The position numbers and the translations under genes were made by a program. The notes under the pieces were generated by a model. The model was given only the letters and a program-made list of their open reading frames with translations. It did not search any database and was not told the origin of the DNA. A stretch of 64,000 bases of DNA from Arthrobacter jiangjiafuii (GTDB lineage Bacteria > Actinomycetota > Actinomycetes > Actinomycetales > Micrococcaceae), in the NCBI RefSeq assembly GCF_018622995.1, contig NZ_CP076022.1:1798001-1862000 (forward strand), in the 5' to 3' direction. This document shows positions 7,962 to 20,585 of this stretch, in pieces. Within the stretch, counting starts at the first letter, position 1; every line of letters starts with the position of its first letter.

Positions 7962-9362
7962 TCAGGTCCGGCGGCCGGTGATTTCGGGTATCAGTGCCCG
8001 GAGTGACCGGCCGCGGACCGCTCCCAGCCACACCCCGGCCCCGTAGGCCAGGTCATCCAGGCGGCGGGCCACGGCAAACCGCACAATATCGAGCTCGGTT
8101 CCGGTCCGCACGTATTCCACCACGACGTCGGCCAGCGCGGCTGCCAGCGCCGCCCGCCGGATCCGCCGCGAGACACAAACGCCGACGGCGGTCAGCGGCC
8201 ACCAGTGCCGCAGCAGCAGGGCCGAGGTCTGGCCCAGTGCGGCGAGCATCCCCTGGCCCGTCAGTGAAGCTGCCAGCACCACCGGCTGCGGGCCGCGCCG
8301 GAGCCGGCTGGCCAGGCGCAGCGTGGTCCACCCGGCCAAGGCCGCCGCGGCGGGGACCGACCAGCGCCGCTGCGCCAGCAGCGCGAGCATGGCTGCCGCG
8401 CTCCACGGAGACAACACGGCCGGAGCCACATTACTGCCGTGGCGCAGCGCCAGTTCGTAGGCTCCGGTTCCATAAAACGCCTTCCGGCCCAGCCACGGCA
8501 CCAGTTCCCGGCGGTGCTCATGCCGCGCGGCCACCGACGCGTCGTACCTGACCCGCCACCCGTCGCGGACCAGGGCCCAGACCAGGTCAACGTCCTCTGC
8601 GACCCGAAGTTCGGGGCTGAACCCGCTGCCGAGGGCCTCGACCCGGCCCACCAGGCAGGCGGCCGGCAGCCAGGACACCTTCGCCCGGGGATGCACCAGC
8701 GACGACCGGGCACCCAAATCCAACGAGGAACGTGAATCCTCGTACCGGAAGATCCAGCCCCGATCCGCGCCCGGATTCCAGCCCAGGATGCGCGGTGCCG
8801 CCAGGGCCACCAGCGGGTCCGCGAAATGGTGCAGCAGCTGCGGAACCGTCTCCGGATCCAGCACCATATCCGAGTCCGCAAACACCACAAAGGGTGTCAG
8901 GACCCGGGACAGCCCGGCGTTGCGGGCACCGGCAGGACCGACGTTTTCGGCCAGGGGAAGATAGTCCGCCCCGTGGCGAGCCGCCACTTCGGCAATGGTG
9001 TCCGGGTCCTGGGAGGCGTCGTCGACCACGACCACCGCCTTGCCCGAGCCGATGCTGTGCAGGAGCCGTTCCAGCGCCGCGGGCCGGTCCCGCACCGGCA
9101 CCACATAGGTCACCTGTGCAGGAGACACCGGCGGCAACGATGCGGTCACCGGCTCGGCTATGCCGTAGCCAAGCAGTTTGTCCGCCAGGGCACGGGACCG
9201 GCGGTCCGTCACGGAGAATTCCCGGTTTTCAAGCAGTGCCCGTGCCGCCGCTCCGGGAAACAGCACCCGCAGCGGAGCGCCTCCGGTCAGCACTGTTCCG
9301 CCGCCGCTGACCCGCACATCCGGTGCCAGCCGCACCCGGAACCCGATCGGCAGCAGACTCAT
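7962..9362 (-). CDS. mftF: Mycofactocin glycosyltransferase MftF
   Basis: A 466-residue protein, last gene of the mycofactocin operon. It has a family 2 glycosyltransferase core (VTYVVPVRDRPAALERLL, then VVVVDDASQDPD, then VVFADSDMVLDPE with the DxD-type motif) preceded by a ~95-residue N-terminal region and followed by a hydrophobic C-terminal part, as in the mycofactocin-system GT2 family. MftF is known to add oligo-glucose to premycofactocin. The ATG at 9362 is used, 10 bases after the mftE stop; the open frame extends upstream but would overlap mftE by about 130 bases. Gene order mftD-E-F supports the name. Confidence 0.93.
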   Translation of the reverse strand: MSLLPIGFRVRLAPDVRVSGGGTVLTGGAPLRVLFPGAAARALLENREFSVTDRRSRALADKLLGYGIAEPVTASLPPVSPAQVTYVVPVRDRPAALERLLHSIGSGKAVVVVDDASQDPDTIAEVAARHGADYLPLAENVGPAGARNAGLSRVLTPFVVFADSDMVLDPETVPQLLHHFADPLVALAAPRILGWNPGADRGWIFRYEDSRSSLDLGARSSLVHPRAKVSWLPAACLVGRVEALGSGFSPELRVAEDVDLVWALVRDGWRVRYDASVAARHEHRRELVPWLGRKAFYGTGAYELALRHGSNVAPAVLSPWSAAAMLALLAQRRWSVPAAAALAGWTTLRLASRLRRGPQPVVLAASLTGQGMLAALGQTSALLLRHWWPLTAVGVCVSRRIRRAALAAALADVVVEYVRTGTELDIVRFAVARRLDDLAYGAGVWLGAVRGRSLRALIPEITGRRT

Positions 9363-9372
9363 GACGCCACCG

Positions 9373-10107
9373 TCATGACACCACGGCACGCGGCTGCAGG
9401 CAGCCATGCCTGTCGGGGGTGCCGTCCAGCCGGCCCAGCACCGAAAATACGGCAGCGCGCAGCAGCGCTTCGCCCTCGGCGGCAGCGGCCCCCGCGGGGT
9501 CACCCAGGATCCCCGAGACCGACACTGCAGCCACCCCGCCGGCCGTCATGGCGGGCATCAGCTCGGCCACCGGGGTGGTGTTGCCGCAGACGGCGCGGCT
9601 CAGCTCCACAGTGTCCGGCGCCAGGTGCAGCATCAGCGACGTCTCGGTGCGCCCGGCGTGCGCATCCGCGGCCCCGGCCACACACGGCACCCACGCCGTC
9701 CGGTGACCCTCCCGGTTCATCTGCATGACGGCACGGGCCAGCGGCGCAACGTTCCCGCCGTGCGCGTTCACAAACACAATGCGCCGGGCCCAGGTGGACA
9801 GCGACCGCACCAGCTCCACCAGCACCGCGTGCAGGGCTTCACTTCCGAGCGAGACCGTTCCCGGAAAATGCTGGTGCTCGCCGCTGGCGCCGTAGGGCAG
9901 TGCGGGGGCAACGACGACGGCGGCCCCGTCCTCCCCGCCGAGCCCTGCCAGCTCGGCTGCTACCGCCCGGGCGACGGCCACGGCTATCACTGTGTCGGTG
10001 TCCAGCGGCAGATGCGGTCCGTGCTGTTCGGTGGAACCGGTCGGCACCAGCACCGTGGCACCACCGGGGACCTCCGGCCAGGACAAGGCCGAAAGTTCCG
10101 ACAGCAC
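9373..10107 (-). CDS. mftE: Mycofactocin peptidase MftE (creatininase family)
   Basis: A 244-residue creatininase-family amidohydrolase. Metal ligand motifs are visible: E27 and H29 in PTGSTEQHGPHLPLDTDT with a following Asp, the NAHGGN box and the later ETS glutamate. In mycofactocin biosynthesis MftE cleaves the MftC-modified precursor and releases the C-terminal Val-Tyr-derived AHDP. It starts with GTG directly after the TGA of mftD with no spacer, so the two are translationally coupled, and ends 10 bases before mftF. Confidence 0.94.
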   Translation of the reverse strand: MLSELSALSWPEVPGGATVLVPTGSTEQHGPHLPLDTDTVIAVAVARAVAAELAGLGGEDGAAVVVAPALPYGASGEHQHFPGTVSLGSEALHAVLVELVRSLSTWARRIVFVNAHGGNVAPLARAVMQMNREGHRTAWVPCVAGAADAHAGRTETSLMLHLAPDTVELSRAVCGNTTPVAELMPAMTAGGVAAVSVSGILGDPAGAAAAEGEALLRAAVFSVLGRLDGTPDRHGCLQPRAVVS

Positions 10108-11304
10108 TCAGTACTCCCGGACCGGCAGGGGATTGCCCAGCGTCCGGGTGAACCCCGGAGGGATCACCAGGTCCTCGGGCACCAGCTCGTGGATGGAGGA
10201 ACGGCCCAGGCCACGCAGCGCAGAGTCCAGCCCCCCGTGCAGGATGTCCAGCACGTTCTCCACGCCGATCTGGCCGTTCGCTGCCAGCCCCCACAGATAG
10301 GCCCGGCCAATCAGCACCGCCCGTGCACCCAGCGCCAGGGCCTTGGCGACGTCGGACCCGCGCCGGATGCCGCCGTCGAGCAGGACTTCCACCTGGTCGC
10401 CCACCGCTTCGGCCACCGACGGCAGGATCCGGATGGTTGCCGGTGTGCCGTCGAGGTTGTTCCCGCCGTGGTTCGACACGGAAAGGGCGGTGACGCCGAT
10501 GTCCACCGCGCGCCGCGCGTCATCGACCCGCGAGACGCCCTTGAGCATGAACGGCCCACCCCAGGCTTCGCGCAGCCAGGCAACATCCTCCCAGGTCGGA
10601 GGAGGAGTCTGCATCCACTCCCCATAGGCCCCGAAAAAGGTGGGGGCTTCTCCGCCCGGCGGAGTGAGGTTCGGTGCGGTCAGGTCGGGGATCCGGCCCG
10701 ACTTGGCGAAGTCCAGCAGCCACCGCGGATGCGGAATCACCTCCGGAGCCAGGCGGGCCATGGCCTTGACCGTCATTTTCTCCGGAATGACCGGGCTGCC
10801 CCAATCGCGCCCGTTGGAAAAGGACCAGTCCAGGGTGGAAATCAGGCCGGTGGCACCGGCCGACCGGGCCCGGTCCATCCGCTGCAGCATCGCTTCCCTG
10901 GATCCGCTCCAGTACATCTGGAAAAACAGCGGCGCGCCGGCGGCAGCCACCTCTTCCACCGGTTTACTGGCGAACGAGCTCAGGCTCATGACGGTGCCCC
11001 GGGCGGCCGCTGCCCGCGCCACCGCCACCTCGCCGTCCGGATGGACCGCCTGCACTCCGGTGGGGGAGATGATGACGGGCAGGGAAATCTGCTGTCCCAT
11101 GACCGTGGTGGAAAGATCCCGTTTCTCGGTCTGGCCGACCACATGCGGGGCGAAGCCCAGCTCGGAGAAGGCAGTGATGTTGTCCTCCACGGTCACACCG
11201 CGCTCGGATCCGGCCACGAGGGCGCCGTACACGGACTTGGGGAGTTTCTGCTTGGCCCTGCGCTGCGCCTCGGCAACGGTTTCAAACCACGGGTTCCTGA
11301 ACAT
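10108..11304 (-). CDS. mftD: Mycofactocin FMN-dependent dehydrogenase MftD
   Basis: A 398-residue member of the FMN-dependent alpha-hydroxyacid dehydrogenase (lactate oxidase/glycolate oxidase) fold. Seen: the PVIISPTGVQAVHPDGEVA strand, the TGLISTLDW region, and SNHGGNNLDGTPATI, where the catalytic His is kept but the usual Arg of SNHGGRxLD is Asn. The C-terminal phosphate-binding part reads LLDGGIRRGSDVAKALALGARAVLIGR. MftD oxidatively deaminates AHDP to premycofactocin, the redox-active cofactor core. It sits in the operon between the VWA gene (66-base gap) and mftE. Confidence 0.94.
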   Translation of the reverse strand: MFRNPWFETVAEAQRRAKQKLPKSVYGALVAGSERGVTVEDNITAFSELGFAPHVVGQTEKRDLSTTVMGQQISLPVIISPTGVQAVHPDGEVAVARAAAARGTVMSLSSFASKPVEEVAAAGAPLFFQMYWSGSREAMLQRMDRARSAGATGLISTLDWSFSNGRDWGSPVIPEKMTVKAMARLAPEVIPHPRWLLDFAKSGRIPDLTAPNLTPPGGEAPTFFGAYGEWMQTPPPTWEDVAWLREAWGGPFMLKGVSRVDDARRAVDIGVTALSVSNHGGNNLDGTPATIRILPSVAEAVGDQVEVLLDGGIRRGSDVAKALALGARAVLIGRAYLWGLAANGQIGVENVLDILHGGLDSALRGLGRSSIHELVPEDLVIPPGFTRTLGNPLPVREY

Positions 11305-11370
11305 GGCACTGCCTTTCTTGGGTGAGACTGGAGAGTTCGGTGAGACTGGAAAAGTGGGTCGGCCGGCTGC

Positions 11371-12252
11371 TCATGTGCTGAAGACCGCGCTGACGGCCGG
11401 GGCGACATCCCGGTAGGTGCGGATCGTCCGGGCGGTGCCGCGGCCGGACCGGGCCAGCTCACGGCCGAGGTCGACGTCGGTCTCGGCGCTCGTATCGATC
11501 AGGACATCCAGACGGGGCAGCCGGGCAGCCGCTACCCGGGGATCGGGGCCGGCATTGTGGACGCAGTCCGAGAGCAGCAGCACCCGGGCGTCCCGGACCG
11601 GGATCCGGGCCAGCTGGCGGTGGGCAAGTTCCAGCGGGAAGCTGATGTTGGTGAGTCCGCGTGCCGGCATCCGCAGCAGCGTGTCCAACAGCTCCATCGG
11701 TTTCAGCTCACCTCCCAGGGGCAGCAGCAGGGCCGCATCGGACCAGAAGGCGATGACGGCCAGTGCGTCCTGGTGGAGTTCGGCGGCCAGCGCCCCGACG
11801 GCGGCCGCCGCGGTCTGGAGGCGTTCCCCCTTCATGGATCCGGAGACGTCAACGGCCAGCACCACGGAACGCCGGGTGCGGATCCGGTCCCGCACCACAA
11901 TGTCCTCGTCCTCCGGAACGGGGCGTTCAGCCAGGACCTCCAGTGTCCGGTCCAGATCGATGTCATCGCTTCCCCCTCGGTAGGGGAGGCTGTCCAGTGC
12001 ACCGCTGCCGCGGCGGGCAGTGGAATCCCGGCGCGGACGAGGCATGGCCAGGCGGGCAGCGATCTGCCGCATCCGGGCCTGCACCGCCGGGTCCACCGGC
12101 GCTGCGGAGATGCCGGCGTCAGTCAGCTCGGCGGGCTCATCGGTAAAACCAGGCCGCGACACCCCTGGCGGACGGGCGCCTGCCGGTGGCCGCCGGCCGG
12201 CGGACAGCGGCTGAATGACCGCGCCGCCGGATCCGGGCACCGGTTCAAACAC
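11371..12252 (-). CDS. VWA-domain protein paired with MoxR ATPase inside the mycofactocin operon
   Basis: A 293-residue protein. The first ~125 residues are Pro/Arg/Ala-rich and low in complexity; the rest is a von Willebrand factor A domain with a complete metal-ion-dependent adhesion site: DxSxS at D135-S139 (DVSGS), T201 and D229 in LLLSD. The GTG start at 12252 follows GAGGAA. It lies 105 bases after the MoxR gene, and MoxR-VWA pairs are established as chaperone/metal-insertion partners (CoxD/CoxE, NorQ/NorD). Its client here is unknown; its place between the SDR array and mftD points to an enzyme of the mycofactocin system or its dehydrogenases (inference). Confidence 0.85.
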   Translation of the reverse strand: MFEPVPGSGGAVIQPLSAGRRPPAGARPPGVSRPGFTDEPAELTDAGISAAPVDPAVQARMRQIAARLAMPRPRRDSTARRGSGALDSLPYRGGSDDIDLDRTLEVLAERPVPEDEDIVVRDRIRTRRSVVLAVDVSGSMKGERLQTAAAAVGALAAELHQDALAVIAFWSDAALLLPLGGELKPMELLDTLLRMPARGLTNISFPLELAHRQLARIPVRDARVLLLSDCVHNAGPDPRVAAARLPRLDVLIDTSAETDVDLGRELARSGRGTARTIRTYRDVAPAVSAVFST

Positions 12253-12357
12253 CGTGGGTTCCTCGGTGAGCTGCTTCGGCGTACGGCGCAGCGGGGCCCG
12301 CGCCGCTGGCGTACGGCTGCTCCGCCGTTCCAGCGGTGAATCGGCTGGGACTTCTCT

Positions 12358-13269
12358 TCATCCGGGGGCCGCCGCGGCAGGGTTGAGGATGAACCGGTCC
12401 TCCCAGATTTCCCGCAGTACCCGTTCGGGCGTGGTTTCGGCAGCTTCGTCCAGATGGATGCGTCCGGAGAGGGAGACCACCATGGCGTCGTAGACCAGGG
12501 CGGGATAGCCCGGATCGCCGGCGTCCCGCACCCCGCGCAGGCCTGCCAGCTGCAGGCCGACCAGCACACAGTCAATGGCACCGCGGACGCTGGATCCCTG
12601 CCGCACATCCGGATGCTCCCGCGTGGCACGGGTGAGCGCGACGGCGTCGACGGTGAGGTCCCGGCCCAACGGTCCGTCCGCGTCGGTGCGCAGGGTGACA
12701 ATGCCGCGTTCGGCGTCGTCGTCCTGGTAGCCGATGGCGAGCCGGTTCAGCCGGTCGTGTACGGAGGTGGAGAGCCGCGTGGTGCCCATGTTGTCGTACG
12801 GGTTCATCGACGCAATGACCCGGAAGGTGGGCTGCGCGGCGATGCTGCCCACCCGGGGCACGGCGATGGAACGGTCGGCCATGGCGGCGAGCAGGGTATT
12901 GAGGGTGTCTTCCGGGGCGCGGTTGAACTCCTCGATGTAGAGGAAACCGCCGGTTTGCATGGCCTCGACCAGCGGTCCGGCGACGAAATTGTCCGCGCTG
13001 TAGTCCTCGCGCAACACCCGGGCCGGATTGTGGTGGCCCACCAGCTTCGCGGGCGTGAGGTCCGCGTTGCCTTCGACGAAGAGCAGCGGAATGCCCCACT
13101 CATCGGTGATGGCACGGAGCATGGTGGTCTTGCTGGTGCCCGGAGGGCCTTCCAGGACAATGTCCCGGCCGGCGGCGACGGCCGCGAGGGTCAGTTCCAG
13201 CTCCCGCTCGCGGCCGACCAGCTTCGCGGCGATCCGGGTCCGGGTCTCCGTTAGATCAGTGGTGTGCAC
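12358..13269 (-). CDS. MoxR-family AAA+ ATPase
   Basis: A 303-residue AAA+ protein: Walker A GPPGTSKTT near residue 41, a Walker B-like FLYIEEFNRAPEDT, the sensor-1 strand RVIASMNPYDN and an arginine-rich helix after it. These are marks of the MoxR group, which remodels or activates partner proteins together with VWA proteins. I moved the start to the GTG at 13269, preceded by AAAGGAA; an open frame runs further upstream into the neighbouring SDR without support. It follows SDR1 by 25 bases and precedes the VWA gene, so it belongs to the mycofactocin operon. Confidence 0.9.
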   Translation of the reverse strand: MHTTDLTETRTRIAAKLVGRERELELTLAAVAAGRDIVLEGPPGTSKTTMLRAITDEWGIPLLFVEGNADLTPAKLVGHHNPARVLREDYSADNFVAGPLVEAMQTGGFLYIEEFNRAPEDTLNTLLAAMADRSIAVPRVGSIAAQPTFRVIASMNPYDNMGTTRLSTSVHDRLNRLAIGYQDDDAERGIVTLRTDADGPLGRDLTVDAVALTRATREHPDVRQGSSVRGAIDCVLVGLQLAGLRGVRDAGDPGYPALVYDAMVVSLSGRIHLDEAAETTPERVLREIWEDRFILNPAAAAPG

Positions 13270-13294
13270 AGGGGTTCCTTTCCGCCCAACCCGG

Positions 13295-14134
13295 TCAGTG
13301 GACGGCCGCGGCCGCGTCCACCGGGATCTGGCCCCCGGAGACGTAGTACGACTGGTCCGAGGCCAGCCAGGCCACCGCATTCGAGACGTGCTCCGGCTCG
13401 ATCCAGGCCTTGCCCATCGGGTTCAGGCCGGCGAAGGCCGGTTCGGCGTCGTCGGCCTGCGGATCGTCCAGTTCGGGGCGGAACAACTTATAGGTATGGG
13501 TGTTCTTCACCATTGGGGTGTCGATGGAGTTGGGATGAATGGTGTTCACCCTGATGCCCAGTGGACCGAGTTCATTGGCCAGCACCTTCATCAGGCCCAC
13601 GATTGCATGCTTCGTCGTGGTGTAGGCCGCAACGTTGGCCAGTCCCTTGAAACCGGCCAGGGAGGAAATGATGATCACTGATCCTCCCGCTCCCGAGGCA
13701 ATCAGGTGCTCGGCTGCCGCCTTGTAGGTGTGCCAGACGCCCGTGACGTTGATGTCCATCAGGTCCTGCCAGGATTGCCCGTCGATCTGATGGGTATCGG
13801 AGCCGAAGGTGAAGATCCCGGCATTGGCCACCACGATGTCCAGCCGCCCCAGCTGCGCCACCCCCTGATTCACGGCCGTCGTCAACGCGCCGATATCCCG
13901 GACATCCGCCTCCACTGCCACAATCCGGCGATCCAAGGCCTCGACCATCCGGACGGTTTCTTTGAGGTCCTCCGGTGTGGACGGCGGATAGAAGTCGGTG
14001 ACGCTGTCCACCGGCCCGCAGAGGTCGACGGCGATGATGTCGGCGCCTTCCCGGGCCAGTCGCAGCGCGTGGCTGCGTCCCTGGCCCCGTGCGGCTCCGG
14101 TAATGAATGCAACTTTTCCTTCAAGGGTTCCCAT
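13295..14134 (-). CDS. Mycofactocin-coupled SDR oxidoreductase (copy nearest moxR)
   Basis: A 279-residue short-chain dehydrogenase with TGAARGQG (cofactor loop, residues 12-19), the insertion after the second strand that marks mycofactocin-coupled SDRs (IAVDLCGPVDSVTDFYPPST), NAG near 104, catalytic S157/S158 and Y171-xxx-K175. Enzymes of this group hold NAD(H) so tightly that the cofactor is recycled by mycofactocin rather than exchanged. It is the most divergent of the four tandem copies: it begins MGTLEGK instead of MGRVEGK and has YTTTK where the others have YVAAK. Substrate unknown, probably an alcohol or ketone. Confidence 0.9.
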   Translation of the reverse strand: MGTLEGKVAFITGAARGQGRSHALRLAREGADIIAVDLCGPVDSVTDFYPPSTPEDLKETVRMVEALDRRIVAVEADVRDIGALTTAVNQGVAQLGRLDIVVANAGIFTFGSDTHQIDGQSWQDLMDINVTGVWHTYKAAAEHLIASGAGGSVIIISSLAGFKGLANVAAYTTTKHAIVGLMKVLANELGPLGIRVNTIHPNSIDTPMVKNTHTYKLFRPELDDPQADDAEPAFAGLNPMGKAWIEPEHVSNAVAWLASDQSYYVSGGQIPVDAAAAVH

Positions 14135-14176
14135 GGAGACTTCCTTTCTGGTGCAGCGGCTTGCTGCACGGGCAGG

Positions 14177-15007
14177 TCATTTGAGCAGAACACCCGCGTC
14201 GACGGGCAGGGTGACGCCGGTGACGTACCGTGCCTCGTCCGAGGCGAGGAACAGCAGGGCGTTGCTGATATCGGCTGCCTCTACCCATTCGATAGGCAGG
14301 GCATTGATGGTGGCGAAGGCTTCGCGGGCATCGTCCTTGGTTGGGTTTTCCAGATCCGGCCGGAACAGGCGGTAAGCGGCGTCATTGAGGATCATGTCCG
14401 TGGACACCGTGGTGGGGTGCAGTGAGTTCACCCGGATCATGTTTGGAGCCAGTTCCAGGGCCAGCGTCCGCATAAGCCCGACCACGCCGTGTTTCGCTGC
14501 GACATAGTGGCCGATGTTCTCCGAGCCCGTAAGACCGGCTGCGGAGCTGGTCAGGATGATGGATCCGCCGTTGCCTCCGGCCTTCAGGTGCGGAATGGCT
14601 GCCTTGGCCGTATGCCACACACCGGTGAGGTTGATGTCCATCATGTCCTGCCAGGACTCTTCACTGAGCTCTTCCGTCCGGCCCAGGGAAAAGATCCCGG
14701 CATTGGCGCTGACGATGTCCAGCCGGCCGAGCTGCGCCACGCCCTCGTCCACTGCAGCCTTCAGCCCGTTGTAATCGCGCACATCCGCCTCAACAGCCAC
14801 GATCCGGCGGTCCAATGCTTCAACCTCTTTGACGGTTTGCTGCAGGTCCTCCGCGGTTGCCATTCCGTAGGGGACGCTGCCAACCTGCCGGCAAATGTCG
14901 ACCGCGATGATGTCTGCGCCCTCCTGGGCCAGCCGGATGGCGTGGCTTCGGCCCTGCCCCCGCGCTGCTCCGGTAATGAATGCGACTTTTCCTTCTACAC
15001 GCCCCAT
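14177..15007 (-). CDS. Mycofactocin-coupled SDR oxidoreductase
   Basis: A 276-residue SDR with TGAARGQG, a mycofactocin-type insert rich in Gln/Val/Pro after IAVDIC, SANAG, the ILTSSAAG serine motif and catalytic YVAAK. Its sequence tracks closely that of the copy nearest mftC (15925-16755): same start, same [14 protein letters not shown] stretch and same C-terminal TLPVDAG pattern, which points to tandem duplication. It lies 49 bases after one SDR gene and 42 before the next, so it is co-transcribed in the operon. Confidence 0.9.
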   Translation of the reverse strand: MGRVEGKVAFITGAARGQGRSHAIRLAQEGADIIAVDICRQVGSVPYGMATAEDLQQTVKEVEALDRRIVAVEADVRDYNGLKAAVDEGVAQLGRLDIVSANAGIFSLGRTEELSEESWQDMMDINLTGVWHTAKAAIPHLKAGGNGGSIILTSSAAGLTGSENIGHYVAAKHGVVGLMRTLALELAPNMIRVNSLHPTTVSTDMILNDAAYRLFRPDLENPTKDDAREAFATINALPIEWVEAADISNALLFLASDEARYVTGVTLPVDAGVLLK

Positions 15008-15056
15008 CGCGTGCTCCTCTCGGTGGTTGTGGTTCCGCTTTCGGCGGCTACTGCTC

Positions 15057-15869
15057 CTAGTACTGCGTGTTTCCGGCGTCGACCGTCATCGTCAGCGACG
15101 TGACGTACCGTGCCTCGTCCGAGGCAAGGAAGAGGACCGCATTGGAGATATCCACGGGCTCGGTCATCTCCACCGGCAGCAGGTTGGTCATCATGGCCCC
15201 AACGCGGGGATGGGCCGCCAGCATTGCGCCCATCTCTGCCATGCCGTCGCCGGATGCCATGGGGGTGTCCACGCCCGTGGGATGGACGGAGTTCACCCGG
15301 ATATGATGCTCGGCGAGCTCCGTGGCGAACGCATGCATCAGGCCAACCACCCCGTGCTTTGCGGCAACGTACGGTGTCAGGAACGGCAGTCCCTTCAACC
15401 CCGCAGCCGAGCTGGTCAGGATGATGGAGCCGCCTCCGGCCGTGACCAGGTGCGGTGCTGCCAGCTGGACGGTATTCCACACTCCGGTGAGGTTGGTGCC
15501 CACGGTTTCCTCCCAGATCTCCGGGGTCACCTCGTCCCAGGGCTTCATGATGCAGATTCCGGCATTGGCGACGACGATATCCAGCCTGCCCAGTTCCGCC
15601 ACTCCGGCATCGACGGCCTGCTGCAGCGCGGCCCGGTCCCTGACGTCGGCCTTGGTGGCGATGATCCGACGGTCCAGGGCCTCCACTTCCTTGACGGTCT
15701 GCGCCAGGTCCTCCTCGGTGGCCGAGGGATAGCCGATCCCCGGGATGGTGTCGCAGAGGTCGACGGCGATGATGTCCGCCCCTTCCTGCGCCAGCCGGAT
15801 AGCGTGGCTGCGGCCCTGTCCCCGGGCTGCCCCGGTAATAAATGCGACTTTTCCTTCTACACGCCCCAT
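15057..15869 (-). CDS. Mycofactocin-coupled SDR oxidoreductase
   Basis: A 270-residue SDR. I set the start at the ATG at 15869 ([19 protein letters not shown]), which matches the start of the other copies; the frame extends upstream without support. It has TGAARGQG, a slightly shorter insert after VDLC (DTIPGIGYPSATEED), VANAG, ILTSSAAG and catalytic YVAAK. The C-terminus ends in SLTMTVDAG. The gene repeats the exact first 60 or so bases of its neighbours, so the array arose by duplication and then diverged in the substrate loop, which here includes a short Ala/Gly/Met-rich stretch near the C-terminal third. Confidence 0.9.
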   Translation of the reverse strand: MGRVEGKVAFITGAARGQGRSHAIRLAQEGADIIAVDLCDTIPGIGYPSATEEDLAQTVKEVEALDRRIIATKADVRDRAALQQAVDAGVAELGRLDIVVANAGICIMKPWDEVTPEIWEETVGTNLTGVWNTVQLAAPHLVTAGGGSIILTSSAAGLKGLPFLTPYVAAKHGVVGLMHAFATELAEHHIRVNSVHPTGVDTPMASGDGMAEMGAMLAAHPRVGAMMTNLLPVEMTEPVDISNAVLFLASDEARYVTSLTMTVDAGNTQY

Positions 15870-15924
15870 GGCGTACCTCCTGGTTAGCGGATAACGGATA
15901 ACGGATAGCTGTTGGCGAGCGGGA

Positions 15925-16755
15925 CTACTTTGCGGTGGACCCGGCATCGATGGGCAGGGTCACGCCGGTGATGTAGCGGGCCTCGTCCGAGGCGAGGAAG
16001 AGGACGGCGTTGGAGATATCCACGGCTTCGACCCAGGGGATGGGCAAGACGTTGAGTGCCTGGAAGCGCTCGCCGATCTGCTCCCGCGTCGGGCTGTCCA
16101 AATCAGGTGCGAACAGCTCGTAGATGGTGCTGTTCTGGATCATGTCCGTGTCCACGCCGGTGGGATGGACGGTGTTGACACGGATCATGTCCTGAGCCAG
16201 TTCCAGCGCCAGGGTCCGCATCAGCCCGACCACGCCATGCTTGGCCGCCACGTAGTGCGCAGAGTTTTCGATTCCCATCAGCCCTGCGGTGGAGCTGGTC
16301 AGGATGATTGACCCGCCGTTGCCGCCGGCCTTCAGATGGGGAATGGCCGCCTTCACGGTGTGCCATACCCCGGTGAGGTTGACGTCAATCATGTCGCCCC
16401 ATTCGCCGGCCGAGAGTTCCTCCGCACGCCCGAACCCGGCAATTCCAGCGTTACCGCAGACGATGTCCAGCCGGCCCAGCTGCGCGACGCCGTCGTCAAC
16501 CGCAGCTTTGAGCGCGGCATAATCCCGAACGTCCGCTTCGATGGCCACGATCCGGCGGTCCAGTGCTTCAACTTCCTTTACCGTCTGCTGCAGGTCCTCG
16601 GAAGTGGCCATTGGATAGTGCACGGTGTCCATCTGGCTGCAGATGTCGACGGCGATGATGTCGGCACCTTCCTGCGCAAGCCTCAATGCGTGGCTCCGTC
16701 CCTGTCCGCGGGCTGCTCCGGTGATGAATGCGACTTTTCCTTCTACACGTCCCAT
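15925..16755 (-). CDS. Mycofactocin-coupled SDR oxidoreductase (copy nearest mftC)
   Basis: A 276-residue [11 protein letters not shown] at 12-19, mycofactocin-type insert (residues ~39-66), GNAG at 101-104, catalytic S154/S155, Y168 and K172. It follows mftC by 50 bases and is the first of four tandem SDR genes. The copy at 14177-15007 is its closest relative by eye. Co-location with the maturation genes supports a mycofactocin-dependent alcohol or carbonyl oxidoreductase; I cannot name the substrate. Confidence 0.9.
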
Positions 16756-16805
16756 GGTGTGTACCTCTTTCTGGATAGTTGCTTCGTTCGATGCGGGTTA
16801 GCTGT

Positions 16806-18089
16806 TTAGTTGCTGCAGCCGCAGCCGCCGGAACCCGGCGTATCGGGGGAGAACCCGGCCAGCGGGTTTTCCGCGCAGGCGCTGACGGGCGGTTGCTCCA
16901 CACGGCGCCGGGAAATGGTCACGGGCACCGGACCGGAGCGCGGCCGCGGGGGAGAGGTCCGGTGGGAGTGGTCGACGCCGGAGCGGGGCGCGGCAGCCGT
17001 GCGGTTATCCAGCGCCTCGGCGCCCAGGCCGCGGACACATTCGGGGTCCGGACCATCCAGCGGCAGACCGGTGAAGAACTTGGCGGCCATGCAGCCGCCG
17101 CGGCACGAATCGTAAAAGGCACAGGATGCGCAGGCTCCGCCGGTTTGCGGGCTGCGCAGTTCGGTGAACAACTCCGAGTGCCGCCACACTTCGGTGAATC
17201 CGCCGGGGCTGCGGACGTTGCCGGCGAGGAATTCGTCGGCAATGGCGAACGGGCAGGCGTACACATCGCCGACCGGGTCGATCAGGCACACCACCCTCCC
17301 GGCGCCGCACATGTTCAGGCCCGGCAGGGCGCCGCCGTACGCGGAGAGGTGGAAGAACGAGTCGCCGGTCAGGACGTCCTCGCCGTGGGCCACCAGCCAG
17401 TCGTAGAGTTCGCGCTGCTGATCGGCGGTGGGATGCAGTTCGTCCCAGACATCGGCGCCGCGGCCTGACGGACGCAGCCGGGTCAGCCGCAGCTGGGCCT
17501 TGTACCGGTCGGCGATGGCCTTGAATTCATCGAGTTGCGGGATGTTCTGCCTGGTGCAGACCACGGAGATCTTGAAGCCGGTGAAGCCCGCATCCGCCAT
17601 GTTCTGCATCGCCCGCATCGCGGTGTCGAAGGATCCGGGACCGCGCACGTGGTCATTGACTTCGGCGGTGGCGCCGTCCAACGAGATCTGCACGTCGACG
17701 TAGTCGCTGGCCGCCAGGCGCTGCGCTACCTGCGGAGTGATCTTCACGCCGTTGGTGGAGAACTTCACGCCCACCTGATGCGCCGTCGCGTAGTCCACGA
17801 GCTCCCAGAAGTCGGAGCGGACCGTCGGTTCTCCGCCGCCGATATTGACGTAGAACACCTGCATCCGCTGCAGCTCGTCGATGACGGCCTTGCACTCCTC
17901 GGTACTCAGTTCTCGAGGATCCCGGCGGCCGGAGCTGGACAGGCAGTGGACGCAGGACAGGTTGCAGGCGTAGGTCAGCTCCCAGGTCAGGCAGATCGGG
18001 GCGTCCAGACCGGTCTCGAACAGGTCCACCAGTGTGGTCGGTTTGTGGGTCGCTGCCTGGCGGGCGGGAACATCCTGGATCAGGGTCAT
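16806..18089 (-). CDS. mftC: Mycofactocin radical SAM maturase MftC
   Basis: A 427-residue radical SAM/SPASM enzyme. The SAM cluster motif CxxxCxxC is C42-C46-C49 in YACNLSCVHC, with the GGEPT motif after it; the SPASM region carries the Cys set MCGAGRVVC, YACPF, CASCAFYDSCRGGC and a late PEC. MftC oxidatively decarboxylates the C-terminal Tyr of MftA and forms the Val-Tyr crosslink. ATG 18089 overlaps the mftB stop by four bases (ATGA). The C-terminal ~45 residues are basic/proline-rich and end in a small Cys/Gly cluster (GGCGCSN), whose role I do not know. Confidence 0.96.
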   Translation of the reverse strand: MTLIQDVPARQAATHKPTTLVDLFETGLDAPICLTWELTYACNLSCVHCLSSSGRRDPRELSTEECKAVIDELQRMQVFYVNIGGGEPTVRSDFWELVDYATAHQVGVKFSTNGVKITPQVAQRLAASDYVDVQISLDGATAEVNDHVRGPGSFDTAMRAMQNMADAGFTGFKISVVCTRQNIPQLDEFKAIADRYKAQLRLTRLRPSGRGADVWDELHPTADQQRELYDWLVAHGEDVLTGDSFFHLSAYGGALPGLNMCGAGRVVCLIDPVGDVYACPFAIADEFLAGNVRSPGGFTEVWRHSELFTELRSPQTGGACASCAFYDSCRGGCMAAKFFTGLPLDGPDPECVRGLGAEALDNRTAAAPRSGVDHSHRTSPPRPRSGPVPVTISRRRVEQPPVSACAENPLAGFSPDTPGSGGCGCSN

Positions 18090-18364
18090 GGTTTCCTCTC
18101 GATCACCATTGCGGAGGTAGCCAGGGTGCCCAGGGCCTTCTGGTAACGGGCCAGACCCGCGTCGTCGGTGATGCCGGCGGCGGTGCAGGCAGCGCGCGCG
18201 GTGGGCTCGGTTCCGAGCTTCCGCACCAGGTCCAGCAGGGTCCGGTCCTTGAGGAAGGACAGCCGGCGGGTTCCGAAGTGGTAGAGCAGGGCTCCGAAGG
18301 GCTCGGGGCGGACGGACACCTGGGGATGGAGGCGCCAGGGACGGTTGAGGTCAAAGCTCGGCAT
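18086..18364 (-). CDS. mftB: Mycofactocin peptide chaperone MftB (RRE protein)
   Basis: A 92-residue RiPP-recognition-element protein lying between mftA and mftC. MftB binds the MftA leader and delivers it to MftC. The ATG at 18364 (MPSFDLNRPWRLHPQV) is chosen, 11 bases after the mftA stop with AGGA upstream; the open frame begins a little earlier, inside mftA. The winged-helix-like part (SFLKDRTLLDLVRKL) is what is expected of a PqqD-like fold. The stop overlaps the mftC start. Confidence 0.93.
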   Translation of the reverse strand: MPSFDLNRPWRLHPQVSVRPEPFGALLYHFGTRRLSFLKDRTLLDLVRKLGTEPTARAACTAAGITDDAGLARYQKALGTLATSAMVIERKP

Positions 18365-18375
18365 GGCCGGCGGTC

Positions 18376-18510
18376 CTAGTACACGCCGCACATGCCGTCG
18401 ATGGAGACTTCCTCCACCAGCAGTTCATCGTCAGCGTCCGGCCCCGCGGGGGCGGCAGACGGTGCAGTCATTTCAGTGGCCGGGGGAGTGGCGGTGCGAT
18501 CCATGGTCAT
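18376..18510 (-). CDS. mftA: Mycofactocin precursor peptide MftA
   Basis: A 44-residue precursor. Its C-terminus EEVSIDGMCGVY is the signature of MftA, with the terminal Val-Tyr that becomes the cofactor. The ATG at 18510 has an AAGGAG Shine-Dalgarno site 7 bases upstream; an open frame continues upstream but that part is not supported. The Thr/Ala/Pro-rich N-terminal half is the leader. First gene of the operon, divergent from mftR. Confidence 0.97.
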   Translation of the reverse strand: MTMDRTATPPATEMTAPSAAPAGPDADDELLVEEVSIDGMCGVY

Positions 18511-18568
18511 TTTGTGCTCCTTGCGGCAGAAACCGGCGTCGATGGCGATACTCTGTGCGGACGAGGCT

Positions 18569-18587
18569 AACGGCACCCAGTGCCATT
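18569..18587. promoter_or_regulatory. Inverted repeat in the mftA/mftR intergenic region, probable MftR operator
   Basis: AACGGCAC-CCA-GTGCCATT: two 8-base arms with one mismatch around a 3-base centre. It lies in the 92-base gap between mftA (18510) and mftR (18603), 16 bases from the mftR start, where it could block both promoters. TetR-family dimers bind such sites; assignment to MftR is inferred from position. Confidence 0.55.
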
Positions 18588-18602
18588 GGGAAGGGGTAGT
18601 TT

Positions 18603-19241
18603 TTGGACACGACGGAAGGGCCATCCGGCCCAGCCAGGAGCGGGCGGAAACCGGTCACCTCCAAGGCCGAGCTCAGCCACGTGGCGCTGGCCCTCTTCCA
18701 GCGCGACGGCTTTGACCGGGTCACCGTGGATGACATTGCGGCTGCCGCGGGAATCGGCCGCCGGACGTTCTTCCGCTACTTTCCGTCCAAGAACGACCTC
18801 CCCTGGGGGGACTTCGAAGACCTGCTGGCCAGGATGTCCGGCTATCTGCGCGGGCTTCCCGAAGACATGCCGCTGGAAACCGGACTGTGCAGTGCCGTGA
18901 TCGAGTTCAACCGGTTTCCTGCTTCAGAGGCCCCGTATCACCGGCAACGCATGGAACTGCTGCTGCATGTGCCCACTCTGCTGGCGCACTCAACCCTGCG
19001 CTATGCCGCCTGGCGGCAGGTCGTTGCCGCCCATGCCGCCCGGAGGCTGGACGTACCGGTGGACAGCCTGCAGCCCCAGGCCATCGCATGGGCCCTGCTC
19101 GGCCTGTGCCTGGCAGCCTATGAACAGTGGCTGCGGTCCGAGGACCTGGTCCTGACCGATGTGCTTTTGCAGTCACTCCAGCTCATCCACGGCGTGCCGG
19201 ATGAACCCGGCTCCCTGTTCCTTGCGGGCGGGAGCCAGTAG
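18603..19241 (+). CDS. mftR: Mycofactocin-system TetR-family regulator MftR
   Basis: A 212-residue TetR-type regulator with the N-terminal helix-turn-helix (about residues 20-66: HVALALFQRDGFDRVTVDDI, then AAAGIGRRTFFRYFPSKND) and a helical ligand-binding C-terminal domain. Start TTG at 18603 with AAGGGG just upstream. It is divergent from mftA, the position of MftR in mycofactocin loci; the M. smegmatis protein represses the locus and is released by acyl-CoAs. The inverted repeat at 18569-18587 lies right in front of it. Confidence 0.92.
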   Translation: MDTTEGPSGPARSGRKPVTSKAELSHVALALFQRDGFDRVTVDDIAAAAGIGRRTFFRYFPSKNDLPWGDFEDLLARMSGYLRGLPEDMPLETGLCSAVIEFNRFPASEAPYHRQRMELLLHVPTLLAHSTLRYAAWRQVVAAHAARRLDVPVDSLQPQAIAWALLGLCLAAYEQWLRSEDLVLTDVLLQSLQLIHGVPDEPGSLFLAGGSQ

Positions 19242-19298: not shown

Positions 19299-20585
19299 AT
19301 GTCCGAACCTGCACCAGAAGGTGCGCTGGACCGAAACCGCGTCCGGACCCTGATCATGCTCGCCCTGCCGGCCATCCTGATCGGCGTGGTCTCCGCCCTG
19401 GTGCTTTTCGCGCTGGATGAACTCAGCCGCCTGCTGCAGCACCTGATCTGGGAGAACCTGCCGCATGCTGTTGGTGCAGATCCCGACGGCGGCTGGTGGA
19501 TCTTCGGCACCCTGACCCTTACGGGACTCGCCGTCGGGCTCATTGTGCGCTTCGTTCCCGGGCACGCCGGCCCGGATTCGGCGGCGGTGGAACTCGGTGG
19601 ATCCGCCCTTCCACTGGGCACGGTTCCTGGCGTGGCGGCCGCAGCAGTGCTCGGACTGGCCGGCGGCGTCAGCCTCGGTCCGGAGAATCCGATCATCGCG
19701 ATCAACACGGCCATCCTCACAGTGCTGATCGGCCGGCTGTTCTCCCGCGTTCCGGCACAGCTGGTCGTGGGACTGACAGTCGCCGGAACTGTGGGGGCGC
19801 TGTTCGGGACCCCCGTCGCCGCAGCACTGCTCTTCACCGGACTCGCCGGCTCAATGGCGGGCGGCGGAGCCCTGTTCGACAGGCTCTTCCTGCCGCTCGC
19901 CGCCGCCGGGGCGGGGGCGGTGACCATGACCCTGCTGGGCGGAACCCTGCTGACCGTCGGGCTGCCCGCCATGGGCAGCCCTGACGGGTGGGATGTGCTG
20001 GCAGGATTCATCATTGCTCCGCTCGCGGCGGGCTTTGCCCTGTTGGGCGTTGGCGTCTTCACCCGGGTTCACCATACGTTCCACCGGCTCGGCAACCCGG
20101 TGCTCTTCACGACGCTGGGCGGAGCGCTGCTTGGCCTGCTGGGTGTCATCGGCGGACCGCTGACCCTGTTCAAGGGAGCGGAGGAATCCGCCGCGCTGCT
20201 GGCGCAGCGCGGCAGCGAATCGGCCTGGACACTGGTGTTCCTCGCGGCGGTCAAGCTGGTTGCCCTGGTGATCGCCGCAGCGGCCGGCTTCCGCGGGGGC
20301 AGGATCTTCCCGGCCGTCTTTGTCGGCGTGGCTGCGGGGCTTGCCGCGGTGGCCTTCGTACCCTCCGTGCCGGTGAGCCTGGCCGTGTCGGCAGCCGTGC
20401 TCGGCGTAGTCCTCGCAGTGGCCCGCGACGGCTGGATGGCCCTGTTCATCGCGGTCCTTATTACGGGGGACGTGAGCGTAACGGCAGTACTCTGCCTGGC
20501 AGTACTGCCGGCCTGGCTGGTGGTCACCAATGCTCCGCACATGCTGGCAGCGCCCGACGGCGGCACCGCCTCTCGTCCTGCCTAG
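19299..20585 (+). CDS. CLC-family chloride channel/transporter-like protein
   Basis: A 428-residue polytopic protein with about 10-12 hydrophobic segments. CLC marks: the external-gate motif GPENP at 127-131 (E129 matches the gating Glu of GREGP) and GGRIFPAVF (GxFxP motif). The first selectivity motif, usually GSGIP, is not kept; the corresponding place reads GHAGPDS (88-94). It therefore belongs to the divergent 'ion channel protein' branch, and ion preference cannot be stated. It follows mftR by 57 bases and need not be related to it. Confidence 0.85.
   Translation: MSEPAPEGALDRNRVRTLIMLALPAILIGVVSALVLFALDELSRLLQHLIWENLPHAVGADPDGGWWIFGTLTLTGLAVGLIVRFVPGHAGPDSAAVELGGSALPLGTVPGVAAAAVLGLAGGVSLGPENPIIAINTAILTVLIGRLFSRVPAQLVVGLTVAGTVGALFGTPVAAALLFTGLAGSMAGGGALFDRLFLPLAAAGAGAVTMTLLGGTLLTVGLPAMGSPDGWDVLAGFIIAPLAAGFALLGVGVFTRVHHTFHRLGNPVLFTTLGGALLGLLGVIGGPLTLFKGAEESAALLAQRGSESAWTLVFLAAVKLVALVIAAAAGFRGGRIFPAVFVGVAAGLAAVAFVPSVPVSLAVSAAVLGVVLAVARDGWMALFIAVLITGDVSVTAVLCLAVLPAWLVVTNAPHMLAAPDGGTASRPA

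Follow-up and report, generated by a model that had tools for sequence, protein, structure and literature searches.

The mycofactocin (mft) locus described here lies in Arthrobacter jiangjiafuii, whose genome of 3.59 Mb is a single contig (NZ_CP076022.1). The DNA under analysis, referred to throughout as the window, is the whole stretch of 64,000 nucleotides from position 1,798,001 to position 1,862,000 of this contig. On its minus strand, mftA, mftB, and mftC are followed by genes for four short-chain dehydrogenases/reductases (SDRs), a MoxR-type AAA+ ATPase, and a von Willebrand factor type A (VWA) protein, and then by mftD, mftE, and mftF; mftR is divergent. An earlier note on this DNA had described the two mft blocks as split by the SDRs, MoxR, and VWA on one strand, and these genes, their place, and their strand are confirmed. 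The same note had treated MoxR and VWA as a pair of adjacent genes. Both are indeed present, but it had missed that they share one reading frame: MoxR ends at a TGA codon (12358-12360), and the VWA reading continues in the same frame without a gap.

The two halves have the features of MoxR/VWA chaperones, in that an AAA+ domain of the MoxR clade is present together with a VWA partner whose metal ion-dependent adhesion site (MIDAS) is intact. The proposed GTG start of moxR is the homologous start in the alignment. Directly after the TGA, the aligned VWA halves begin with a conserved linker peptide (REVxADSP...RRxPKxLxExP). The VWA half matches VWA_2 (PF13519) and VWA_CoxE above the Pfam gathering scores, and the MIDAS residues (DxSxS, T, D) are invariant in 23 of 23 aligned VWA rows.

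The in-frame UGA junction among relatives

We compared the junction with its counterparts in samples of 295, 248, and 396 genomes from the family, order, and phylum, respectively, and in named genomes, for which 80 of 188 relatives were retrieved (L and G numbers denote loci and genomes). A TGA codon, a shared frame, and a gap of zero were observed in 11 of 11 family loci and in all 78 named-genome loci that hold both halves; the other two of the 80 (L080 and L101) have no MoxR in reach and were left out. The closest named loci are from Arthrobacter species. After pooling, 89 junctions were reduced to 84 distinct ones, and every one of these has an A following the TGA and a Pro codon at -2, with Gly at -1 in 81. 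One locus in the alignment (L121) contains a stretch of N. The TGA-A junction is likewise present in all of ten additional loci (10/10), including two plasmid-borne ones. In the tree described below, the MoxR sequences of L185 and L186 from this group are identical to L083/L082-type rows. In the order, 10 of the 248 sampled genomes match at E 1e-100, of which nine (including the host) do so at full length with exactly one TGA, whereas the match in the tenth is confined to MoxR.

As a control, we took the remaining mft and SDR genes at these loci and omitted those below 150 bits except mftA and mftB. TGA is the stop codon in 391 of 611 cases, and 43 of the 391 have an A next to it, compared to 84 of 84 at the MoxR-VWA junction. 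Furthermore, where the first codon after the TGA encodes Arg, it is AGR in 80 of 80 loci, whereas AGR accounts for 218 of the 3,400 Arg codons elsewhere in the VWA half; this bias fits a demand for A at position +4. PMC5289835 cites evidence that UGA is misread most by E. coli tRNA-Trp when A follows (Engelberg-Kulka 1981), and the invariant +4 A agrees with this context.

Selection on the region after the TGA was estimated from 35 disjoint pairs of 71-97% identity drawn from 82 rows; L074 and L092 were omitted from this analysis and from the start-codon counts because their MoxR is too short. Codons 1-9 after the TGA have a dN/dS of 0.16, and the corresponding values are 0.16 for MoxR, 0.15 for the VWA domain, and 0.37-0.39 for the linker beyond codon 9. 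The pN/pS ratio of codons 1-9 is 0.23 in the VWA frame versus 1.31 and 2.50 in the other two frames. Judged by these substitution patterns, the codons directly after the UGA are translated as protein in the VWA frame. The conserved VWA N-terminus in the window has no usual start codon. Among the 82 loci, ATG, GTG, and TTG are absent from the first eight codons after the TGA in 70 and from the first forty in 11, and the first of them appears at codon 92 in L072, 107 in L115, and 86 in L120.

Matches at E 1e-40 were obtained in 33 of the 396 phylum genomes, of which 22 match in the MoxR part only. Besides the host, eight carry MoxR-VWA as a single open frame (G619, G346 with two genes, G530, G391, G304, G335, G334, and G466). 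The remaining two are G591, whose copy is scrambled with TGA-A kept, and G679, where the copy and neighboring SDRs are frame-broken. A His codon stands at the place of the TGA in G679 (APG-H-IALDADNPIQ versus APG-stop-RxVEADSPxx in the TGA group). The G591 copy (L180) lies at a contig end and retains APG/EPG-TGA-A, and MftC of this genome is on a different contig. The fused protein of G619 aligns to profile positions 10-631 of 634 (797 bits). A MoxR tree with 109 rows places all 92 TGA rows in a single clade (support 100/99), and the nearest rows outside it are G619 and G679, both of which the tree program flagged as long branches. The fused gene lies between mftC and mftD in L177, L178, and L182, the same place as in the window. 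In two of the eight genomes with a fused gene, the loci L174 (8417-11307) and L176 (8036-11042) have tandem MoxR and MoxR-VWA genes directly after mycofactocin-type SDRs, and these would yield the same two products that are expected from readthrough of a single gene. The eight genomes with fused genes were tested for MftC together with G591 and G679, and it exceeds its cut-off in 9 of these 10; the one that falls short is G466, whose completeness is 89%.

The gene assignments for the window are collected in Table 1. The products of mftB through mftF, MftR, and all four SDRs exceed the curated NCBIfam cut-offs (MftF 280, MftE 172, MftD 470.85, MftC 265, MftB 33, MftR 224.9, and TIGR03971 300 bits). 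The mftA gene is presumed from its C-terminal motif, rather than from a model. Two other identities for the pair were rejected. MoxR scores 44.7 bits against the NCBIfam model for the MadB AAA ATPase (cut-off 475), and a PADLOC search for defense systems returned only IetA, at 17.9 bits over 44 MoxR residues, and nothing for VWA.

Table 1. Features of the mycofactocin locus (window positions)
Feature	Positions	Strand	Basis or remark
moxR-UGA-VWA, single reading frame with internal TGA; GTG start proposed at 13269	11371..13269	-	no other stop in frame
MoxR AAA+ ATPase, 303 aa from proposed start	12358..13269	-	PF07728 (AAA_5) and PF07726 (AAA_3) above gathering score
Conserved TGA, context CCC GGA TGA AGA, proposed leaky stop	12358..12360	-	junction comparison
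VWA half: linker peptide, then VWA domain with intact MIDAS (DVSGS, T, D)	11371..12357	-	alignment, dN/dS
Mycofactocin-coupled SDR 4	13295..14134	-	TIGR03971, 379 bits
Mycofactocin-coupled SDR 3	14177..15007	-	TIGR03971, 421.7 bits
Mycofactocin-coupled SDR 2, inner ATG (longest ORF runs to 15947)	15057..15869	-	TIGR03971, 385.9 bits
Mycofactocin-coupled SDR 1	15925..16755	-	TIGR03971, 425.8 bits
mftC, radical SAM maturase	16806..18089	-	TIGR03962, 664.5 bits
mftB	18086..18364	-	TIGR03967, 111.5 bits
mftA (presumed) precursor peptide, 44 aa, C-terminus IDGMCGVY	18376..18510	-	recognized by eye
mftR, TetR regulator	18603..19241	+	TIGR03968, 253.1 bits
mftD	10108..11304	-	TIGR03966, 706.9 bits
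mftE	9373..10107	-	TIGR03964, 302.3 bits
mftF	7962..9503	-	TIGR03965, 392.2 bits

Mycofactocin genes, SDRs, and MftG around the pair

The MoxR-VWA pair repeatedly accompanies the mycofactocin system. In nearly all of the 80 named-genome loci, it is found with genes of mft biosynthesis, with mycofactocin-type SDRs (defined here as proteins scoring above 200 bits to the SDRs of the window), or with both, and this upholds the tie to mycofactocin that the earlier note had drawn from one cluster. The genera represented include Arthrobacter, Cryobacterium, Microbacterium, Agromyces, Nesterenkonia, Streptomyces, Rhodococcus, Kineosporia, Modestobacter, and Jiangella, among others. Of the 78 loci, 59 have MftC or MftD in reach. 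That note had also proposed to survey whether the pair correlates with a particular dehydrogenase, and the pair does track the SDRs: in 67 of the 78 loci, the gene directly upstream of MoxR encodes a mycofactocin-type SDR. In the other 11, an SDR is found elsewhere in the locus (3), nowhere (6), or the region is cut by a contig edge (2). In L119 and L120, the pair is accompanied by no SDR and no gene of mft biosynthesis, L125 has only an SDR located away from the pair, and L062 and L097 have mft genes and no SDR in the locus. In L119 (Granulicoccus phenolivorans), the pair is near genes for an arylmalonate decarboxylase-like protein and a flavin reductase. Large linear Rhodococcus plasmids (L183 and L184) carry the pair beside annotated mycofactocin-coupled SDRs and catabolic genes. 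In two annotated plasmid copies, MoxR and VWA are listed as separate proteins, and their start codons are assigned to differing places.

Within the family sample, MftC exceeds its cut-off in 15 of 295 genomes, 11 of which carry the pair next to mft genes. Around MftC of the remaining four, 6 to 32 kb of sequence showed no pair; the contig of G148, one of these four, is only 6 kb long. The pair is present in each of the 11 clusters that have several high-scoring SDRs in a row and absent from all four that do not. In G038, a single SDR (397 bits) lies roughly 5 kb from the cluster.

The earlier note had further stated that the operon has no mftG and the window no GMC oxidoreductase, and this holds for the window but not for the genome. 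A genome-wide search for GMC domains yielded a single protein, outside the window, and the statement about the window rests on this search rather than on a gene-by-gene one. Its gene (approximately 624.8-626.4 kb) is about 1.18 Mb away from the mft cluster, and its 406.7 bits are 19 bits above the MftG cut-off of 387.45. In a GMC tree of 24 rows, in which two genes were entered twice (L041/L207 and L040/L206), it falls in a 12-row clade (99/99) together with MftGs that adjoin mft clusters (G058, G223, G257, G265, G279, G253, G060, G148, and G178), with support of 85/82 for its exact position. The genome-level MftG and its tree placement rule out the absence of mftG from the host. Five sister genomes from the same genus (G058, G223, G257, G265, and G279) hold mftG at the place occupied in the window by a gene for an ion channel protein (19299-20585; NF002971, 411.5 bits), which is next after mftR.

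MftG exceeds its cut-off in 7 of the 11 family genomes with the pair (G000, G058, G223, G253, G257, G265, and G279) and in 2 of the 4 without it (G060 and G148). Although these numbers are small, the pair is thus no marker of a missing mftG. The G178 protein resembles MftG at 376.7 bits, compared to the cut-off of 387.45. Three of the four pair genomes without MftG (G034, G102, and G119), as well as G038, encode another GMC protein near the cluster that is below every MftG cut-off, so a different oxidase may operate in the three. GMC oxidoreductases under all MftG cut-offs occur near the mft clusters of L043, L044, L045, and L039 and are possible alternative mycofactocin oxidases. Approximately 25% of genomes with MftC are reported to have no MftG, and the substitute is left open in that study (PMC11778925). 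If our reading of the host genome is right, a cluster without mftG carries little information about the genome as a whole.

A putative leaky UGA and its alternatives

We consider it likely that a single gene with a programmed, leaky UGA encodes both MoxR and VWA, which would give MoxR plus some MoxR-VWA fusion that remodels client proteins, most likely SDRs. Many ribosomes would stop at the UGA to release a MoxR AAA+ subunit of 303 aa, and a fraction would insert a residue, probably tryptophan via tRNA-Trp, to make a fusion of 632 aa. Leaky termination at UGA-A after Pro-Gly would be the plainest account of the junction. An AlphaFold model of the readthrough product has a mean pLDDT of 74.7 and a pTM of 0.46, with residue 304 (the UGA codon) inside a stretch (299-325) where pLDDT is less than 50, and the UGA region therefore looks like a flexible linker in this model. 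Mixed hexamers would then hold few VWA arms, perhaps about one, and the machine would spend ATP on client remodeling.

The likeliest clients would be the mycofactocin-coupled SDRs encoded just upstream. In SDRs of the TIGR03971 family, NAD is buried and non-exchangeable (PMC5264612, PMC3023750), and the machine may load, free, or repair this bound NAD in the way that CbbQO frees inhibited Rubisco. It is gene position that suggests SDRs as clients, and a machine that opened such a site would resemble Rubisco activation. Readthrough, its rate, the inserted residue, the stoichiometry, the client, and the action on NAD are what we infer from the sequences. By analogy with CbbQO, the leaky stop could be the source of a six-to-one ratio. 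We put forward only tentatively the full scheme, wherein UGA readthrough across the clade sets a ring with one VWA arm in six that loads or repairs the NAD of mycofactocin dehydrogenases, and outgroups use tandem genes instead.

Several observations weigh against this proposal. Because the relatives share ancestry, the invariance of the junction counts for less than its numbers suggest, and we attach no probability to it. No stimulating or stable RNA fold was found near or after the stop in folding energies of 83 loci and in shuffles for 40 loci. The TGA-A of G591 is kept even though the copy is scrambled with a second stop. An ATG, GTG, or TTG codon lies upstream of the MIDAS motif in 82 of 82 loci, and a shorter separate VWA is therefore possible in addition to the fusion. 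Regarding the clients, 9 of the 76 loci that are not edge-cut have no SDR directly upstream, and it is mftD that lies directly downstream of VWA in the window.

These start codons are also what recommends a two-gene explanation, in which translation stops at the UGA and restarts at a later in-frame codon, so that VWA is made alone. The plasmid annotations start VWA 45 and 144 bases past the MoxR stop, and the known NorQ/NorD and CbbQ/CbbO systems consist of separate proteins. However, the candidate starts are not at a common place and are mostly distant from the stop, codons 1-9 are strongly selected as protein in the VWA frame, and re-initiation creates no need to keep the frame, the TGA, or the +4 A. 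We therefore regard it as unlikely. The invariant T, G, A, and A could alternatively reflect an overlapping NTGA start that opens VWA in the -1 frame, followed by a +1 frameshift into the VWA frame; ATGA and GTGA starts are common in actinobacteria. This idea is highly improbable, since the base before the TGA is A in 22, C in 23, G in 4, and T in 35 of 84 junctions, a spread that fits free Gly wobble and is unlike start codon choice, and since selection after the TGA is in frame 0 rather than in the other frames. Least probable of all is that UGA is read as selenocysteine or by a dedicated suppressor tRNA, although UGA is the selenocysteine codon and is never exchanged at the junction. In the host genome, the best selB match reaches 193.2 of 242.25 bits, the best tRNA-Sec match scores 43.3 against a gathering score of 47 with ordinary tRNAs at those loci, and no UCA anticodon is present among the 52 tRNA genes found. 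The lack of a stable RNA fold downstream of the stop likewise argues against selenocysteine.

A different set of alternatives concerns the client. The machine might ready a metalloenzyme, substitute for MftG, or assist mycofactocin biosynthesis instead of acting on SDRs, and we give this group a minor but real share of the probability. The metalloenzyme client suggested in the earlier note finds no support, because the constant neighbors of the pair are SDRs. Catalysis by SDRs needs no metal. Nevertheless, the related NorQD is described as inserting iron (PMC9976466, PMC13036017). The suggestion that the pair replaces a missing mftG could draw on G213, which has the pair and no MftG above the cut-off, but it fails for the host, and MftG is present in most pair genomes of the family. 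A role in biosynthesis would suit the position of mftD in the window and the mft genes without an SDR in L062 and L097. However, four mft clusters of the family have no pair, so the pair is not needed for biosynthesis generally, and it also occurs beside SDRs distant from mft genes.

To our knowledge, conserved stop-codon readthrough in a bacterial cellular gene is rare. Within the open-licence literature, which leaves out most subscription papers, we found no paper joining mycofactocin with MadB or with von Willebrand, and none joining stop codon readthrough with MoxR. Mycofactocin with MoxR returned nothing beyond a Mycobacterium chelonae prophage study, and mycofactocin with readthrough nothing beyond a review of RiPP cyclization. 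A broader search of this literature gave no mycofactocin among the matches listed. The novelty of the readthrough finding is not proven by these searches. If leaky termination does occur, it would add an ATP-driven component to the mycofactocin system, allow genetic tests of whether each MoxR hexamer holds one VWA, and provide a natural actinobacterial system in which to measure UGA-A readthrough.

Comparison with known systems

The proposed expression strategy resembles that of murine leukemia virus gag-pol, where a short product and a stop-readthrough fusion come from the same message (PMC4178896). That case is viral and uses UAG, unlike the bacterial cellular gene described here, which has UGA-A and no RNA structure that we could find. 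MadB is a related MoxR-type ATPase, although the MoxR of the window is far under the MadB cut-off.

The closest solved folds to the MoxR half are NorQ, which is its top structural match, and CbbQ. Like the proposed fusion, CbbQ/CbbO combines MoxR and VWA, with one CbbO per CbbQ hexamer (CbbQ6CbbO1) freeing a blocked active site, and a single VWA per ring is what its authors expect generally; one of their densitometry results, for truncated CbbO, disagreed with 6:1 (PMC4660213). NorQ/NorD, also a MoxR-type AAA+ ring with a VWA partner, agrees with six to one (PMC9976466). Unlike the gene in the window, both systems consist of separate proteins, acting on Rubisco and nitric oxide reductase, respectively, and no in-frame stop between the NorQ and NorD genes is described in the available parts of the sources. 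Midasin (Mdn1/Rea1) holds six AAA modules within one giant chain. It is the best sequence match in the PDB and, although it serves eukaryotic ribosome assembly, it resembles the predicted readthrough product in joining AAA+ modules and a MIDAS domain in a single chain.

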